Shown here piece after piece: positions 5,133 through 24,327 of a DNA stretch of 25,330 nucleotides. Every line of letters begins with the position of its first letter. Position 1 is the stretch's first letter. Origin of the DNA: a virus; the IMG/VR virus record IMGVR_UViG_3300025828_000171, positions 1 through 25,330 of that record, one strand, 5' to 3'. The notes under the pieces were generated by a model. That model was not told the origin of the DNA. It was given only the letters and a program-made list of their open reading frames with translations, and ran no database searches. The position numbers and the translations under genes were made by a program.

Positions 5133-6320
5133 TTACGGATCTACCGCTTCAATTTCCCAATAACACTGATCTGCAAAATATAATCCGCCGTTGAATTTTC
5201 CATTTACAGTGACAGTATTAGTTCCACATTCGCCTTCAATATACCACTTATCCCAAGCTCGCATATTTCGATTTTCTAACACATATTCTCCCGACAATGA
5301 GTCATATCCATTTGAAATTACTTTAACGTAATTTGATACCCCAGCTGCTGTATTACCTTCGAGTGCTGGTTGATAATCTGCAGATTTTCTCTGCAATCTA
5401 GCTCTAAATCCTACTTCCCGGCCTATAGATTTTTTATCGCTTTCTAATTCTCTACGTTTTTCCGCAAGGGCTTTTATTTTGTTTTGATATACATAATATC
5501 CTCTAGATCGAGGGTTGGATTTTGCCTGAAGCTCGCGGAAAACTCTTATAGAAGAATTAATTACATCAATTACTGCATTTATATCATTAATTTCATCAGC
5601 TGGATTGCCTTCTACATCAGGATTTGCAAAATGTACATCTACTTTATAACGCATTCGAAGATTTTTACCAGATTCAATTAGTTCAGGTGTAATTGTATAA
5701 GTACCAGGCTCAATCTGTTGCGGACCTCGTAGTACATTATTAAACTCCAATTTTTGGAATCCATGAGCTTTTCCAGCAACAGGATAACTAGGAGCAAATA
5801 CAAACCATTGTGTTACAAAATCTGGTGTATATCTTGCGCTAAATACATCCAATTCATTTTCTGGCAATTCTATATCAATCTCGCCAATATCCGTTTGCCT
5901 TGAAATAATAGTTGGAGGAAATTTAAAGTATTTAAACTGCGTGTCAATAACTCTATTAACAGAACTATTCGTATATAATCTATCATTAGCTTCAACGATT
6001 ACCGTTTCATTGTATTGTGCAGCGTCTTCATCAGTAACTTGCTGTACAGTACCATTAATAATCAAATTACCTGCTGCATCTCTTTTATTTATGAATGGTA
6101 AATTAGATGCATAGTCTAATCCTTTTTGATCATAAATGATTTGTTCTTGCCTGCTTGCTATTTGAAAGGATTGTTCGTATGTACTTGGCTGTAATATTTC
6201 AGCTCTAGTTTGACTGCGCATGTCTCGAATTGCATTCTCATCAACAAATGCAGATGCTTCTGATGAAATAGAATCACTGAAAAATTCTGGTGCAAAATAT
6301 TCTGATTGTTGTTCTGCCAT
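5133..6320 (-). CDS. Virion structural protein, baseplate/tail cluster
   Basis: A 395-residue protein that I do not recognise at family level. Its start overlaps the stop of the upstream DNRLRE gene by one base (TAATG), so the two are probably translationally coupled. The N-terminal 100 residues are polar and acidic. The middle looks beta-rich. Around residues 245-310 a charged helical stretch contains KIKALAEKRRELESDKK, a likely short coiled coil. The C-terminal ~60 residues are again beta-like, with several Trp and Tyr residues and two Cys. Position between the wedge genes and the giant tail protein suggests a baseplate-periphery or fibre-attachment part. That role is inferred from context only. 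Confidence 0.75.
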   Translation of the reverse strand: MAEQQSEYFAPEFFSDSISSEASAFVDENAIRDMRSQTRAEILQPSTYEQSFQIASRQEQIIYDQKGLDYASNLPFINKRDAAGNLIINGTVQQVTDEDAAQYNETVIVEANDRLYTNSSVNRVIDTQFKYFKFPPTIISRQTDIGEIDIELPENELDVFSARYTPDFVTQWFVFAPSYPVAGKAHGFQKLEFNNVLRGPQQIEPGTYTITPELIESGKNLRMRYKVDVHFANPDVEGNPADEINDINAVIDVINSSIRVFRELQAKSNPRSRGYYVYQNKIKALAEKRRELESDKKSIGREVGFRARLQRKSADYQPALEGNTAAGVSNYVKVISNGYDSLSGEYVLENRNMRAWDKWYIEGECGTNTVTVNGKFNGGLYFADQCYWEIEAVDP

Positions 6321-7459
6321 TATCTAACTACTTTAAAATAATATTCATTATCAATATACTGTTCTGTGAAACCATCAACAATTTTTAATGCTATGCGATA
6401 ATAACGCTCTGGCATCAACCCATTCATATCTAAATAAATGAAGTTGCTGGTGTCATCACAACTCACTTTAGTATAAATATCGTCAAATGGAATTATTGTT
6501 TCATCTGTAGCAGCATCGACAACTGAATAATATGTAGTCTCTGGCAAGCGCTTAACTGTCTGTAATGGAAATAAATTTGTAGCTGATTTTTGTGGATATT
6601 TGTCTCGTCCATAAAAGCGTATACGAGCTATTTCCGTGTCTTTATACGATTTATTAATTTTTGGGTAAATGATATTCGATTCTAAATCAAGTGCGTCTAA
6701 CGTGCTAGAATACGCTGACTGATCCCAATACATGGTTAGCCTTGGAACATATATAGTATGTGTTTCTCTAGAAAAGAATCTTACATACCCAGTAGTGTCG
6801 CCAGACGCTTCATCGGCATCAGAAAATTTAAGCAAGAATCCATTATTTGAAATTGTTGTTCCTGCACTACCATTGATCCATAATTTAACTGCATCTGTTA
6901 CATCCATGTTAATATCAGTAGGACGATAACTAAATGACTCTTGTTCTTCTAAGCCCGGTTGTGTATAAAAACTTTGGTCATATTGCGTTAAGTCATATGA
7001 TGCAGACCCACTTTGATATATCCAGCTACCACCCTGACTTCCGGTAATTTTTAAAGATGTTGTAACATCACCTGAGGTAGTCCATGATGAACCAGAAGCA
7101 GGATATTGCCACGAAACACCATCGGTAATAGAAGGCGATGAATTTTCAAAACCAACGCCATTCGTCCAAGAATCATATGCAATTTTTGCTTCAACTGTAT
7201 ATTCTGAAGAAAGTGTTTTTGCATGAGAAGTATATAGTTGTAAAACAAACTTACATGCATCTAAAGTTGTAGAATATTTTGTTAATGTAGATTGAATTTC
7301 AGACATATCAAACTTAAGAAGAGACCTACTTCGTACATAAGCATCTCCAGAAGTATTAATGCGTTTGCCTACTTCAAGAATTTCATCGATACCAGTATTA
7401 AGTGTCGGTACAGATTCATATAATGTAGCATCTTTTTCTGCGTAAAATATTCTGAACAT
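6320..7459 (-). CDS. DNRLRE-domain (jelly-roll) tail protein
   Basis: A 379-residue protein. Residues ~10-55 carry the pattern of DNRLRE modules: DATLYESVPTLNTG, a short strand, then RSLLKFDMSEI. Residues ~184-211 carry the second half, DVTDAVKLWINGS followed by NNGFLLKF. DNRLRE modules are beta-sandwiches of secreted or surface proteins, often carbohydrate-associated, so a glycan-contacting tail or fibre component is the likeliest role; this is inference. The C-terminal ~110 residues look like a separate beta domain. It has an AAGGAT SD just before ATG, and its leader carries both an ATATTTAT octamer and a T4-late-type TATAAATA. Confidence 0.75.
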   Translation of the reverse strand: MFRIFYAEKDATLYESVPTLNTGIDEILEVGKRINTSGDAYVRSRSLLKFDMSEIQSTLTKYSTTLDACKFVLQLYTSHAKTLSSEYTVEAKIAYDSWTNGVGFENSSPSITDGVSWQYPASGSSWTTSGDVTTSLKITGSQGGSWIYQSGSASYDLTQYDQSFYTQPGLEEQESFSYRPTDINMDVTDAVKLWINGSAGTTISNNGFLLKFSDADEASGDTTGYVRFFSRETHTIYVPRLTMYWDQSAYSSTLDALDLESNIIYPKINKSYKDTEIARIRFYGRDKYPQKSATNLFPLQTVKRLPETTYYSVVDAATDETIIPFDDIYTKVSCDDTSNFIYLDMNGLMPERYYRIALKIVDGFTEQYIDNEYYFKVVR

Positions 7460-7477: not shown

Positions 7478-7485
7478 TATTTATA
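7478..7485 (-). promoter_or_regulatory. TATAAATA, identical to the T4 late promoter -10
   Basis: The minus strand reads TATAAATA 18 bases before the ATG of the DNRLRE tail gene. This is the exact core of T4 late promoters, which are recognised by gp55, and a gp55-like protein is encoded at 12624-13325. The implied 5' leader would be only ~10-12 bases, holding the AAGGAT SD. In a genome this AT-rich the octamer can arise by chance. Confidence 0.4.
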
Positions 7486-7493
7486 ATAAATAT
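7486..7493 (-). promoter_or_regulatory. ATATTTAT intergenic octamer
   Basis: The sense strand reads GGAATATTTATT between the gp6-like stop and the DNRLRE gene. It is one of seven copies found in gene gaps and is a candidate late promoter or processing element. Here it sits directly upstream of TATAAATA. Confidence 0.35.
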
Positions 7494-21224: not shown

Positions 21225-21773
21225 TTAATAGAAGGTTTGAACTGCAAAGACTTTGTACATTGACACGCTGCCAGAAATATTGTAGAATCTAAGTGATAGA
21301 CCAAATCCAAACTTTGTGTAATTACCCAACATGTTTGCTCGATGACCTGGAGACCGTTCCCATTGTTCTACTAACTCTTTAGCAAGTTCCCTTTCATTGG
21401 CAGATAACGGCCCATTGAGAGAATCTGCATAACAATAATTCATTGCACAATTCTCGCCTACGGACAACATTTTGCACCTAACTGATGGTGTCTTGCCTGT
21501 ATAATATTTAGAGTTACTTTCAGTTTCAATGTGAGCAAATTCATCATGACAGGCTAAATACAATGAATGATTAAATGCTCCAACATTCAATGATGAATCA
21601 TATTGTAAAGGTTGTCTTCTATTTTTCACTCTAAATTCATTTACGTATTTCAACATGTAAAATCTTAATGAGTCTTGAGTCAAATTACATTCTGTTAAAT
21701 CTGATGCTTGATATTGTTGAGCAGATACAGATAATGAAAATAATACAAATAATCCTACAAATAACTTTTTCAT
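21225..21773 (-). CDS. Secreted CAP/SCP-domain protein
   Basis: A 182-residue protein. Residues 1-20 form a signal peptide (MKKLFVGLFVLFSLSVSAQQ) with the SVSAQQ ending common in Bacteroidota exports. A CAP (cysteine-rich secretory / PR-1 / SCP) domain follows: YVNEFRVKNRRQPLQYDSSL (43-62), His69, His81, GEN at 106-108, and WERSPGHRANML at 138-149 with His144. Five Cys (29, 75, 100, 109, 114) could form disulfides outside the cytoplasm. Bacterial CAP functions are poorly known. It has its own sigma70-like promoter and no SD, so it is probably expressed from host polymerase. Confidence 0.85.
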   Translation of the reverse strand: MKKLFVGLFVLFSLSVSAQQYQASDLTECNLTQDSLRFYMLKYVNEFRVKNRRQPLQYDSSLNVGAFNHSLYLACHDEFAHIETESNSKYYTGKTPSVRCKMLSVGENCAMNYCYADSLNGPLSANERELAKELVEQWERSPGHRANMLGNYTKFGFGLSLRFYNISGSVSMYKVFAVQTFY

Positions 21774-21821: not shown

Positions 21822-21834
21822 ATATTATTTTCTA
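21801..21834 (-). terminator. Possible weak terminator after the OmpA-like gene
   Basis: On the minus strand TAGAA (21834-21830) can pair with TTCTA (21816-21812) around a 13-base loop, followed by CATC and seven T (21807-21801). The stem is short and AT-rich. The layout mirrors the stronger elements at 14408 and 17935. Confidence 0.3.
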
Positions 21835-22733
21835 GTTTGATCTTTTATTTGATCTAATTCATCTCTACTTACTTGCTGAAAGAAGTTTACTATTTGACGT
21901 TCATCATAAATAAACCAAGCATGTTTGCCTGTCGTGTCTTCTAATCTTATTTTAGTTTTAGGATTAATTGTACTCTGAGTAGCACCATATTTTTTAAGTA
22001 AATCTACTAATGGCTTAGATCTAGGAGACTTAGGAGATATAACCGATCCATATATTGCTGTAGAATACGAGTCTCTCATTTTTCCAGTTAAATTATCTCT
22101 CATCCATTGATATGAATCTAGATATTGTAATTCATTGCCTTCGGCTGTGCTAAGCGTTTTGATATTTTTATCTACATAACCTAAAATTTCATTTACAGGC
22201 GTAGCTTCATAATTTTTTAAATTTTCCATGCAGAAAAATGAAATCGCAGAATCACTAAATCCTAACGCAATTCTATGTAGCGGTGTCTCCGTAATTTGAA
22301 TAGGCGGATCTGTCTTGATCACAGCTCGTACATATTGTTCTTGTTTATATTTGTCATCACCCGGGTCATCTGTCCCACGAACATATTCGGTAGTACCAAT
22401 TTTAGTTACTACATTAATCTGATTAACATATTCTGGCAATTGTTTAGCTAACTGTTTTTTAACAGCTTCAGCACGTTTTTGAGCTAACTCGTTCGGCTTA
22501 TATTGTGTACTAGGAACTCGAGACTCGCTTGATTCAATTGTTATGCCCGCGATCTTATAATTTTGCCTAACTAAAGCTTTAACTCGTGATACTACTCGAT
22601 CTATATTTTTCTGCTGTTCTGGCGGCAACACGGATTGGCCAGACTCAAAGTTAAAATTAACCGGCTCATATGATTGATCTCCTTGTTCTTTCAACAATCC
22701 AGCTTCACGCAATATGCTTTTCAATTTAATCAT
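21825..22733 (-). CDS. Protein with OmpA-like domain
   Basis: A 302-residue protein. After a helical start (MIKLKSILREAGLLKEQGDQ), residues ~25-143 follow the OmpA C-terminal fold: FNFESGQSVLPPEQQKNIDR, KIAGITIESSES, then NELAQKRAEAVKKQLAK and INVVTKIG. The Arg of the peptidoglycan-binding loop (KRAEAV) is kept, while the usual Asp-containing loop reads SSESRVPSTQY. The rest (~145-302) is unrecognised. There is no signal peptide. An LKE/Q site near residue 16 resembles the I/L-x-E sites cut by T4-type prohead protease. AGGA acts as SD. It could be a virion protein contacting cell wall; this is inference. Confidence 0.7.
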   Translation of the reverse strand: MIKLKSILREAGLLKEQGDQSYEPVNFNFESGQSVLPPEQQKNIDRVVSRVKALVRQNYKIAGITIESSESRVPSTQYKPNELAQKRAEAVKKQLAKQLPEYVNQINVVTKIGTTEYVRGTDDPGDDKYKQEQYVRAVIKTDPPIQITETPLHRIALGFSDSAISFFCMENLKNYEATPVNEILGYVDKNIKTLSTAEGNELQYLDSYQWMRDNLTGKMRDSYSTAIYGSVISPKSPRSKPLVDLLKKYGATQSTINPKTKIRLEDTTGKHAWFIYDERQIVNFFQQVSRDELDQIKDQTRK

Positions 22734-22734
22734 G

Positions 22735-23496
22735 TTATTTTCCTACTATTCGTTGCAAACGATTCTGCGATTTATAATAAATATAACTACGATATATCTG
22801 CGTAGGCGTTAAACCAAAGTTATGTGCTAAATTGTCAAGTATGTCAGCAACAAGATGTTCTCTTTCTAAATTGTTATGCACCTTTTTAGACAGTATGCGA
22901 ATAATTTGTTCTAGATACCGTAAATATCCTTTTGGAAGTCGTTTTAATGTTCTCGATGACTTTGCGTATACCTTAGCTTCGTTCTTTTTTTTAGAAGCCA
23001 TGACCTTTTTTGCTACATTAACTGTTTCTGTAAGAACGTCCCCATAATTAGCCACCCACTCGGTAGGCCCAGCCTCAGGAACTTCAGCGCCTGTTTCTTC
23101 CGGGGCTTCTGCACCACCTTCTGCTCCGGCTGCTGCAGTATCATCGCCGCCCATACCTTTGAATGGCATCACATCATCTAGCTTGATATTGAGCTTTATG
23201 GTGTAATCTTCATTGCGTCCGTAGCCGCCATATGGTGTAATACTTACAATTTTATTTTTTATGAGGTTATCAAGCACTGGACGTGTTAAATTTAATGTCG
23301 ACCCTGCTCGTGTAATGAACTCTTCGAAGCCAATATCAGTTTTTGAATAAAGAATGCCTAAATATTGACTTCCTTTCTCTGCAAATTTGCCTAAGAATGC
23401 TTGTTCTTCTGCAGAAAATGGTGAAGTATCCACCTCTTCTGCCTGTTCAGCAACAATTCTTTGCAATTCTTCTTGAACTATTTTACGTACATCCAT
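22735..23496 (-). CDS. Possible internal/structural protein with low-complexity linker
   Basis: A 253-residue protein. The N-terminus MDVRKIVQEELQRIVAEQAE is a short amphipathic helix like that of the 163-residue tail-block protein. Residues ~35-110 are an alpha/beta domain, followed by an Ala/Gly/Glu/Pro-rich acidic linker at ~115-145. The C-terminal ~100 residues are basic and helical (VAKKVMASKKKNEAKVYAKS, YLRYLEQIIRILSKKVHNNL). It abuts the Hc1-like gene with no gap. Linker and basic tail suggest a DNA-contacting head or scaffold-like protein. No family is recognised. Confidence 0.65.
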   Translation of the reverse strand: MDVRKIVQEELQRIVAEQAEEVDTSPFSAEEQAFLGKFAEKGSQYLGILYSKTDIGFEEFITRAGSTLNLTRPVLDNLIKNKIVSITPYGGYGRNEDYTIKLNIKLDDVMPFKGMGGDDTAAAGAEGGAEAPEETGAEVPEAGPTEWVANYGDVLTETVNVAKKVMASKKKNEAKVYAKSSRTLKRLPKGYLRYLEQIIRILSKKVHNNLEREHLVADILDNLAHNFGLTPTQIYRSYIYYKSQNRLQRIVGK

Positions 23497-23682
23497 TTAT
23501 TTGTCTCTTGTTTCGGATAAATTTGTATGTCTGTAATTACTTGCAAGTTTTTTAAGGTGTGTTGCTGCCTTTCTTGCTCTTGCACCTGCCGCTTTGATGT
23601 TTTTTTCGTAAAATCTTGTGTGATCTTTCTCAAATGCATCCCAGGTTTGCTTCATTTCATCGTAAATTTCTTGCGATGTCAT
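23497..23682 (-). CDS. Hc1 / histone-H1-like DNA-binding protein
   Basis: A 61-residue protein. The segment WDAFEKDHTRFYEKNIKAAG followed by ARARKAATHLKKLASNYR is the typical core of the Hc1-type histone-H1-like proteins of Bacteroidota: an acidic helix, K-AAG-RARKA, then LKKL. Hc1-family proteins bind DNA without sequence specificity and compact nucleoids. AAAGGAT SD, with an ATATTTAT element in the leader, suggests late expression beside two possible virion proteins. DNA packaging or host nucleoid remodelling are both plausible. Family match is good, role inferred. Confidence 0.8.
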   Translation of the reverse strand: MTSQEIYDEMKQTWDAFEKDHTRFYEKNIKAAGARARKAATHLKKLASNYRHTNLSETRDK

Positions 23683-23722: not shown

Positions 23723-23998
23723 TTACTTTGCCATGTTTTTCAAAGTTTCTGCTTGAACAGCAGCTATGGCCTTGCGATCAGATGCCGTTAATTTGTCTTG
23801 CGGAACGTATCGATACCCGATTCCTACATGGTCAATTACTGTATTTTCATTGATTCCATGAACTTTGAGATCGACTAACTTGTCAATATTGTCAGATGTC
23901 TTGCCTCTCATTATTTTTATGAGCTTCTTTTTGCTTCTCTGAGTGCGTCGATAAGTGATTACGAGCGGTAATCTTAGATATGATCCTTTTGTTGCCAT
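23723..23998 (-). CDS. 91-residue basic protein, unknown
   Basis: Unrecognised. The N-terminal half is basic (YRRTQRSKKKLIKIMRGKTS). Next come DLKVHGINENTVIDHVGIGY and a helical C-terminus (ASDRKAIAAVQAETLKNMAK). The start overlaps the DUF192 gene by 25 bases, with ATTATGGCA as start context and no clear SD. It is the last gene before the gap holding the Hc1 leader. Confidence 0.65.
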   Translation of the reverse strand: MATKGSYLRLPLVITYRRTQRSKKKLIKIMRGKTSDNIDKLVDLKVHGINENTVIDHVGIGYRYVPQDKLTASDRKAIAAVQAETLKNMAK

Positions 23999-24327
23999 AA
24001 TGTAACTTTTTGACCTGGTATTATTTTATGTATGAATACTGTATTTGCTGGTAATTCAACAACTGCATCTCCAAACCCAACATAAGACTCACCCGAATTC
24101 GGTACACAGTTTGGATAAATCTTGATAATTTTGCCATTATTAACAAAAACGATATCCATTGGTACTATACAATTCTGTGTATGAAAAGAATGCATTCTTG
24201 GTGTCATTGCAAAATACATAGAATCACTACCATTCCATGTACGTCCTTGCATTCCTTGGGCATGTTGCCATTCAGTACGTTGAATTTCTGTGCTGAATTT
24301 GTTTGTTCCTATTATTACGTAATTCAT
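23974..24327 (-). CDS. DUF192 family protein
   Basis: A 117-residue protein. Visible family blocks: a start-strand, RTEWQHAQGMQGRTW (17-31; the GL/GM-r block), SMYFAMTPRMHSFHTQNCIV with MDIVFVNNGKIIKI (36-70; equivalent of the usual FWMxxxxxPLDxxF), and DAVVELPANT (~87-96), then GQKVTLW. DUF192 is a small beta-barrel family common in bacteria and found in some phages, without established biochemical function. No signal peptide. It begins three bases after the two-TM gene, whose final TATTTATAA supplies its AT-rich leader. Confidence 0.8.
   Translation of the reverse strand: MNYVIIGTNKFSTEIQRTEWQHAQGMQGRTWNGSDSMYFAMTPRMHSFHTQNCIVPMDIVFVNNGKIIKIYPNCVPNSGESYVGFGDAVVELPANTVFIHKIIPGQKVTLWQQKDHI

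Follow-up and report, generated by a model that had tools for sequence, protein, structure and literature searches.

Why would a phage carry a histone-like gene, and at what stage of the infection would its product act? Histone-like proteins are not usually considered part of DNA packing in tailed phages. We have analyzed a 25 kb virus record (IMG/VR IMGVR_UViG_3300025828_000171, all 25,330 nucleotides of the stretch, hereafter the window), a phage fragment carrying gp6-like and gp25-like baseplate wedge genes together with a short ORF that the initial annotation had taken for a histone-like protein of the Hc1 family. The assignment was confirmed. The product matches Pfam PF07432 over residues 5-53 (E 5.7e-16, 58.6 bits for a cut-off of 23.5), and on this match we consider the family membership firm. 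A PHROG search with the same protein gave no good match (best E 0.013). The coordinates of all the features discussed are collected in Table 1.

Table 1. Features of the Hc1 region of the window and copies of the promoter-like motif
Feature	Position	Strand	Basis or remarks
Second window copy of the promoter-like motif, ATATTTATTATAAATA	7478..7493	-	before the 379-aa gene at 6320-7459
OmpA-domain protein with leader-like N-terminus, candidate head cargo	21825..22733	-	PF00691, E 7.2e-9
Leader of the OmpA-domain protein, residues 1-10	22704..22733	-	N-terminus common to G001/G002 proteins, strict-pattern control
w253, 253 aa: leader, predicted winged-helix domain, acidic linker, basic helical C-terminal half	22735..23496	-	pairing, model, fold comparison
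Predicted winged-helix domain of w253, about residues 22-112	23161..23433	-	pLDDT block, element order, fold matches
Leader of w253, residues 1-17, candidate prohead-protease site after E17	23446..23496	-	(I/L/V/M)xE in 49/49
Hc1 (PF07432), histone-H1-like, 61 aa, predicted two-helix hairpin	23497..23682	-	Pfam, AlphaFold2, dN<dS
Promoter-like motif ATATTTATTATTAAATA, starting 32 nt upstream of the Hc1 start codon	23698..23714	-	conserved, recurring

The comparison of the window gene with two relatives gave dN values of 0.0068 and 0.098 for dS values of 0.060 and 0.475 (L002 and L003, respectively), and because dN stays below dS we conclude that purifying selection acts on it. AlphaFold2 placed helices at residues 3-27 and 30-60 with a mean pLDDT of 97.4. 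An alignment of 31 phage and cellular copies showed no variation at four residues of the basic segment KAAGARARK (A32, A36, R37 and K38), and the window protein as a whole has 13 K/R for 9 D/E, a net charge of only about +4. Searches for solved-structure relatives found nothing better than E 0.22 by sequence and nothing better than E 1.2 by fold, the latter being expected because the hairpin is so simple a shape. The chlamydial Hc1 has a long lysine-rich C-terminal tail, whereas the window protein stops at residue 61 and has no such extension. The short Hc1 proteins encoded in the chromosomes of Bacteroidota and Fidelibacterota (about 58 aa, median pI about 9.7) have the same core as the window copy, which differs from them in its phage gene context and in its phylogenetic position.

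The initial annotation had described Bacteroidota-type Hc1 proteins as chromosomal nucleoid proteins. A recent acquisition of the window copy from the host was not supported, because phylogenetically it is separate from the Bacteroidota chromosomal copies. In a tree of 88 rows and 61 columns, in which 19 of the 85 inner branches were well supported, a group of 49 rows, nearly all of them chromosomal copies from Bacteroidota, included no phage row, and the window-type copies fell outside it. We omitted 7 of 75 cellular rows on account of their identity, length or unknown residues, together with two duplicates among the 22 phage rows, and the INPHARED copies, those of Lak phages and immuto among them, are not represented in the tree. 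The Hc1 of Lak-A2 (L197:8010-8189) appeared by eye closer to the Bacteroidota chromosomal copies than to the window one, so that some phages may well have a host-derived Hc1. Taken side by side, these sequences give hints of separate acquisitions by phages.

We searched for other examples in two scans of viral contigs, which gave 11 and at least 12 loci, with two common to both. In 10 of the 22 loci examined, the window included, a gene that we call w253 is located right downstream of Hc1. In four others (L007, L008, L126 and L130) Hc1 is flanked by tail-tube and baseplate-hub genes, with an endolysin-type gene also present in the region of L126, and another four (L010, L011, L012 and L131) share a different neighbourhood including a putative phosphoribosyltransferase gene that matches a gene so annotated in Flavobacterium phage immuto. 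The settings of the remaining four are different again. In INPHARED, the Hc1 of L128 matched 22 records, i.e. 15 Prevotella phages (the 14 listed being Lak phages), four of Flavobacterium phage immuto, two uncultured and one marine; the Hc1 of the window, that of L008, a Flavobacterium chromosomal Hc1 and w253 found no match there. The immuto gene is annotated as a hypothetical protein and is located after GroEL, at a distance from the genes annotated for tail and head. Hc1 thus recurs among phages, at several different genomic positions. Outside the usual phyla, an Hc1 gene 47% identical in its best segment was found in a contig titled Sulfuricurvum (L102:2965-3183), with surroundings that look cellular.

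One of these settings is the pair with w253. In the window the w253 gene begins immediately after the Hc1 stop codon. We identified 63 w253 loci, partly redundant and coding for 51 distinct proteins, and in 57 of them an Hc1 ORF (39 distinct proteins) is located directly upstream, with a 4-nt overlap between both genes in 22 of the 57. Five of the six others end at a contig border, leaving as the single true exception L134, where w253 is present and no Hc1 was found in the 77-kb record (G018). Seen from the w253 side, this is therefore a near-obligate and often overlapping gene pair. Seen from the other side, w253 was not found in 8 of the 20 Hc1 phage records searched, many of these being fragments, nor in any of four further genomes (immuto, Lak-A2 and two huge phages), and because several Hc1 phage records are without w253, Hc1 cannot generally depend on it. 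Seven loci (L135, L136, L137, L138, L139, L140 and L142, the first two alike) have a second Hc1-like gene of 56 aa about 2.5-2.9 kb downstream of the w253 start, and therefore some phages have two; records G019, G020 and G021 gave two Pfam Hc1 matches apiece.

The neighbour had been described as a basic, linker-containing protein. The linker is there (pI 4.1, acidic), and the basic character is restricted to the C-terminal 107 residues (pI 10.1), the whole protein being neutral with a pI of 6.9. The structural model of w253 was poor overall (mean pLDDT 58.6), with only the N-terminal domain well predicted (71-87 over residues 31-110). The order of elements in this domain, H-E-H-H-E-E-H, fits a winged helix. 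The best VIA-align matches were mostly MarR-type winged helices, with a top Z of 6.1, a value that can reflect just a common structural arrangement, and the best Foldseek match had an E-value of 7e-3. We take these matches to the predicted domain as fitting a DNA-binding domain rather than as proof of one. No solved-structure relative of w253 better than E 0.1 was found by sequence, and none of ten long w253 proteins scanned had a Pfam match over the cut-off. The case for w253 being a baseplate protein consisted of a weak PHROG match (E 0.0077), and this reading was rejected. Upstream of the pair, a DUF5856 gene was found in 24 of the 41 w253 loci with at least 2 kb of upstream sequence. The corresponding PHROG (phrog_858) is named starvation-inducible transcriptional regulator, and we read the protein as Dps-like. 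Besides, a DUF192 protein (PF02643) is coded within the Hc1 gene run of the window (23974-24327, minus strand).

The cleavage of capsid-targeting leaders in phage T4 follows an (L/I)xE rule. Such propeptides, of 10-20 residues, target T4 head proteins to the prohead and are removed there by gp21 (PMC5694885; see also PMC3012670). We have examined w253 for a similar signal, with the pattern widened to I/L/V/M (the site of the window protein is VAE). After omitting two partial sequences from the 51, all 49 distinct proteins had the site immediately ahead of the folded domain, compared with a frequency of 18% in 2550 control windows, although here as for the promoter-like motif below the pattern was devised after some of the sequences had already been seen. 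When w253 is fused to the cargo that follows, the 40-residue junction contains the site in 12 of 12 distinct proteins (in three of them, L184, L185 and L190, the match covers no more than the first two thirds of the w253 profile), to be compared with 80 of 600 windows further downstream. An S77 prohead protease was found in four of 11 records (G001, G003, G004 and G005), all four carrying w253, and scored above the cut-off in 8 of another 12 records, including immuto and Lak-A2; none was found in the 25-kb window, itself a fragment. These data suggest that w253 is likely a head-targeted protein.

The third gene of the run, after Hc1 and w253, is swapped between relatives. In the window it codes for the OmpA-like protein of the initial annotation, whose domain was recovered by Pfam (Table 1). 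In G001 and G002 a different protein replaces it, with the likeness limited to about the first 21 residues (81% identity). A strict pattern of this leader was found in 5 of 113 genes of G001, 1 of 37 of G002 and 6 of 195 of G005 (0, 0 and 0.014 expected), and a loose one in 15, 3 and 17 genes (4.5, 1.2 and 5.7 expected). The strict pattern gave none in either immuto or crAss001; the loose one was found in immuto for 20 of 159 genes (about 123 kb, 8.0 expected) and in crAss001 for 2 of 41 (50 kb, 1.6 expected). Three immuto proteins (L195, L199 and L200, of 182, 333 and 99 aa) share a similar N-terminus that may be immuto's own head-targeting leader. At the 3' side of the OmpA-domain gene, a CAP-domain protein (21225-21773, minus strand) was variable, with 23-36% identity between relatives.

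The resemblance to the internal head proteins of T4 consists thus of the short N-terminal leaders of w253 and the OmpA-domain protein, with their (L/I)xE-type site, and of the S77 protease of the relatives. In w253 the likeness is one of leader type, no sequence relation having come up in the general searches, and the window Hc1 differs from the T4 proteins in being without a leader: the site was absent from its first 30 residues. Of the 39 distinct Hc1 proteins adjacent to w253, 22 have the pattern within that stretch, mostly at residue 6; as it is not conserved we do not read it as a leader, and cleavage at this type of site could still take place in relatives.

With regard to timing, we compared 41 distinct regions 5' of Hc1, and 33 of them have an AT-rich motif with core ATATTTAT, in 27 cases in its full form; of the eight without it, one (L182) is interrupted by the contig end. 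Counts of the full motif were 8 in G005, 5 in G001, 2 in G002 and 2 in the window, where 0.4, 0.0, 0.0 and 0.05 were expected, and all 17 copies are on the strand with most genes. The second window copy precedes a gene that comes after the gp6-like baseplate gene. In the three relatives, a gene start was called no more than 90 nt from 12 of the 15 copies; of the remaining three, one precedes the Hc1 gene of G001, which an overlap filter had removed from the ORF set. ORFs were called separately for each 20-kb piece, so that genes spanning a border, such as gp6 of G001, were cut or missed. A relaxed form located at most 60 nt upstream was found for 31 of 191 genes in G005, 21 of 112 in G001 and 9 of 37 in G002, compared with 6.0, 3.7 and 1.2 in shuffled controls and 8, 6 and 3 in the reverse orientation.

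In G005 the motif, partly in its relaxed form, precedes among others the genes for tail sheath, tube and hub, for GroEL, for the DUF5856 protein and for Hc1. In G001 it precedes the portal gene, and many further genes of unassigned identity have it as well. The DUF5856 gene of G005 (94142-94516, minus strand), with the relaxed form, is about 1 kb from Hc1. In G001, a relative of 93 kb, a single strand carries Hc1 (at about 43.0 kb), the gp25- and gp6-like genes (about 58.2-60.5 kb), the terminase (86.4 kb) and the portal (88.0 kb). The motif was missing at the four tail-context loci and at the immuto Hc1 gene. We infer that it is a late promoter and that Hc1 is likely expressed late, because the motif upstream of it recurs before tail and head genes of relatives. 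The late-looking unit of candidate virion genes proposed by the initial annotation has thus gained support on both counts, from the promoter-like motif common to Hc1 and these genes and from the leader peptides on both Hc1 neighbours together with the prohead protease of related genomes.

Our leading explanation, in which we have a little less than even confidence, is that Hc1 is a late phage protein that organises the genome for packaging with its co-encoded partner w253. We arrive at it because of the Hc1 match, the pairing, the leader, the S77 protease, the winged-helix-type domain, the late-type motif and the DUF5856 neighbour. Both genes would be co-transcribed late; w253 would enter the prohead, be trimmed by the S77 protease and bind DNA, and Hc1 would bind and condense the phage DNA just before packaging, or in the head through either DNA or w253. 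A joint action of the two proteins on phage DNA is plausible. Several observations weigh against this explanation: the window Hc1 has no leader-type site and a low net charge, L134 has w253 with no Hc1, several Hc1 phage records showed no w253, the motif is missing at the tail-context loci and in immuto, and the w253 model is poor overall. In a more elaborate version, rather unlikely in our view, Hc1, the prohead-targeted w253 and the swappable leader-tagged cargo would form an in-head nucleoid that organises the genome and is delivered into the next host. Alternatively, Hc1 could be an intracellular nucleoid or regulatory protein with no role in the head, coating the replicated phage DNA and tuning replication or late transcription with w253 as co-regulator. 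The best fold matches of w253, mostly transcription regulators, would agree with this, as would the absence of a leader-type site in the window Hc1 and the place of the immuto gene after GroEL and distant from tail and head genes; however, the conserved (I/L/V/M)xE leader of w253 and the late-type motif point to the virion, and we judge such a regulator improbable without dismissing it.

The initial annotation had also offered silencing of the host nucleoid, and condensation of phage DNA at packaging time fits the evidence better. Hc1 might compact the host nucleoid at takeover, or be ejected with w253 to act in the next host. The chlamydial Hc1 considerably lowers DNA and protein synthesis in E. 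coli, as cited in PMC12619734, and ejected phage head proteins are described in PMC5694885, but a motif common to late structural genes would be late for a takeover of the same cell. This objection applies to same-cell takeover only and not to ejection, and we regard silencing in either form as distinctly unlikely. A last possibility is that Hc1 does not bind DNA and acts in assembly, as a co-factor or chaperone of w253 and, in other phages, of tail parts. The predicted hairpin is a common protein-binding form, the coupling to w253 is tight and four of the 22 loci examined have the gene among tail genes. On the other hand, the residues invariant between phage and cellular copies, the widely differing position of Hc1 among phages and the similar tail genes of G005 and immuto with no Hc1 between them argue against it, leaving this chaperone only a slight chance of being right. 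Tail assembly as the main role was set aside because in both these genomes the sheath, tube and hub genes are found without Hc1 between them.

That a phage Hc1 compacts the phage genome is already a published idea. PMC12619734 (2025) reports Hc1 in four complete genomes of Bacteroidota moraphages and suggests compaction at packaging. Moraphages share with the phages analyzed here a phage-encoded Hc1; they are large and aquatic, have gp6, gp25, sheath, tube and prohead protease genes, and their predicted hosts are mostly Bacteroidota. Compared with the parts of that report relevant here, we add the w253 pairing and leader, the late-type motif and the varied contexts of Hc1, the tail one among them. 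No other paper on phage-encoded Hc1 was found in the open-access literature by title or abstract. A similar situation involving a different protein family is found in crAss001, a Bacteroidota phage. The annotation of its first 50 kb (L201) includes HU, HU/IHF-like and DpsA-like genes, and one of these nucleoid-type genes is the immediate neighbour of a tail tubular gene.

The leader allows candidate head-cargo proteins of uncultured phages to be listed from sequence only, and Hc1 could be tested in Flavobacterium phage immuto, whose laboratory host is known by name (Flavobacterium sp. LMO8). A conserved late nucleoid-type pair, one of its members with a head-targeting type of leader, would make the in-capsid organisation of large-phage genomes by proteins a testable matter.
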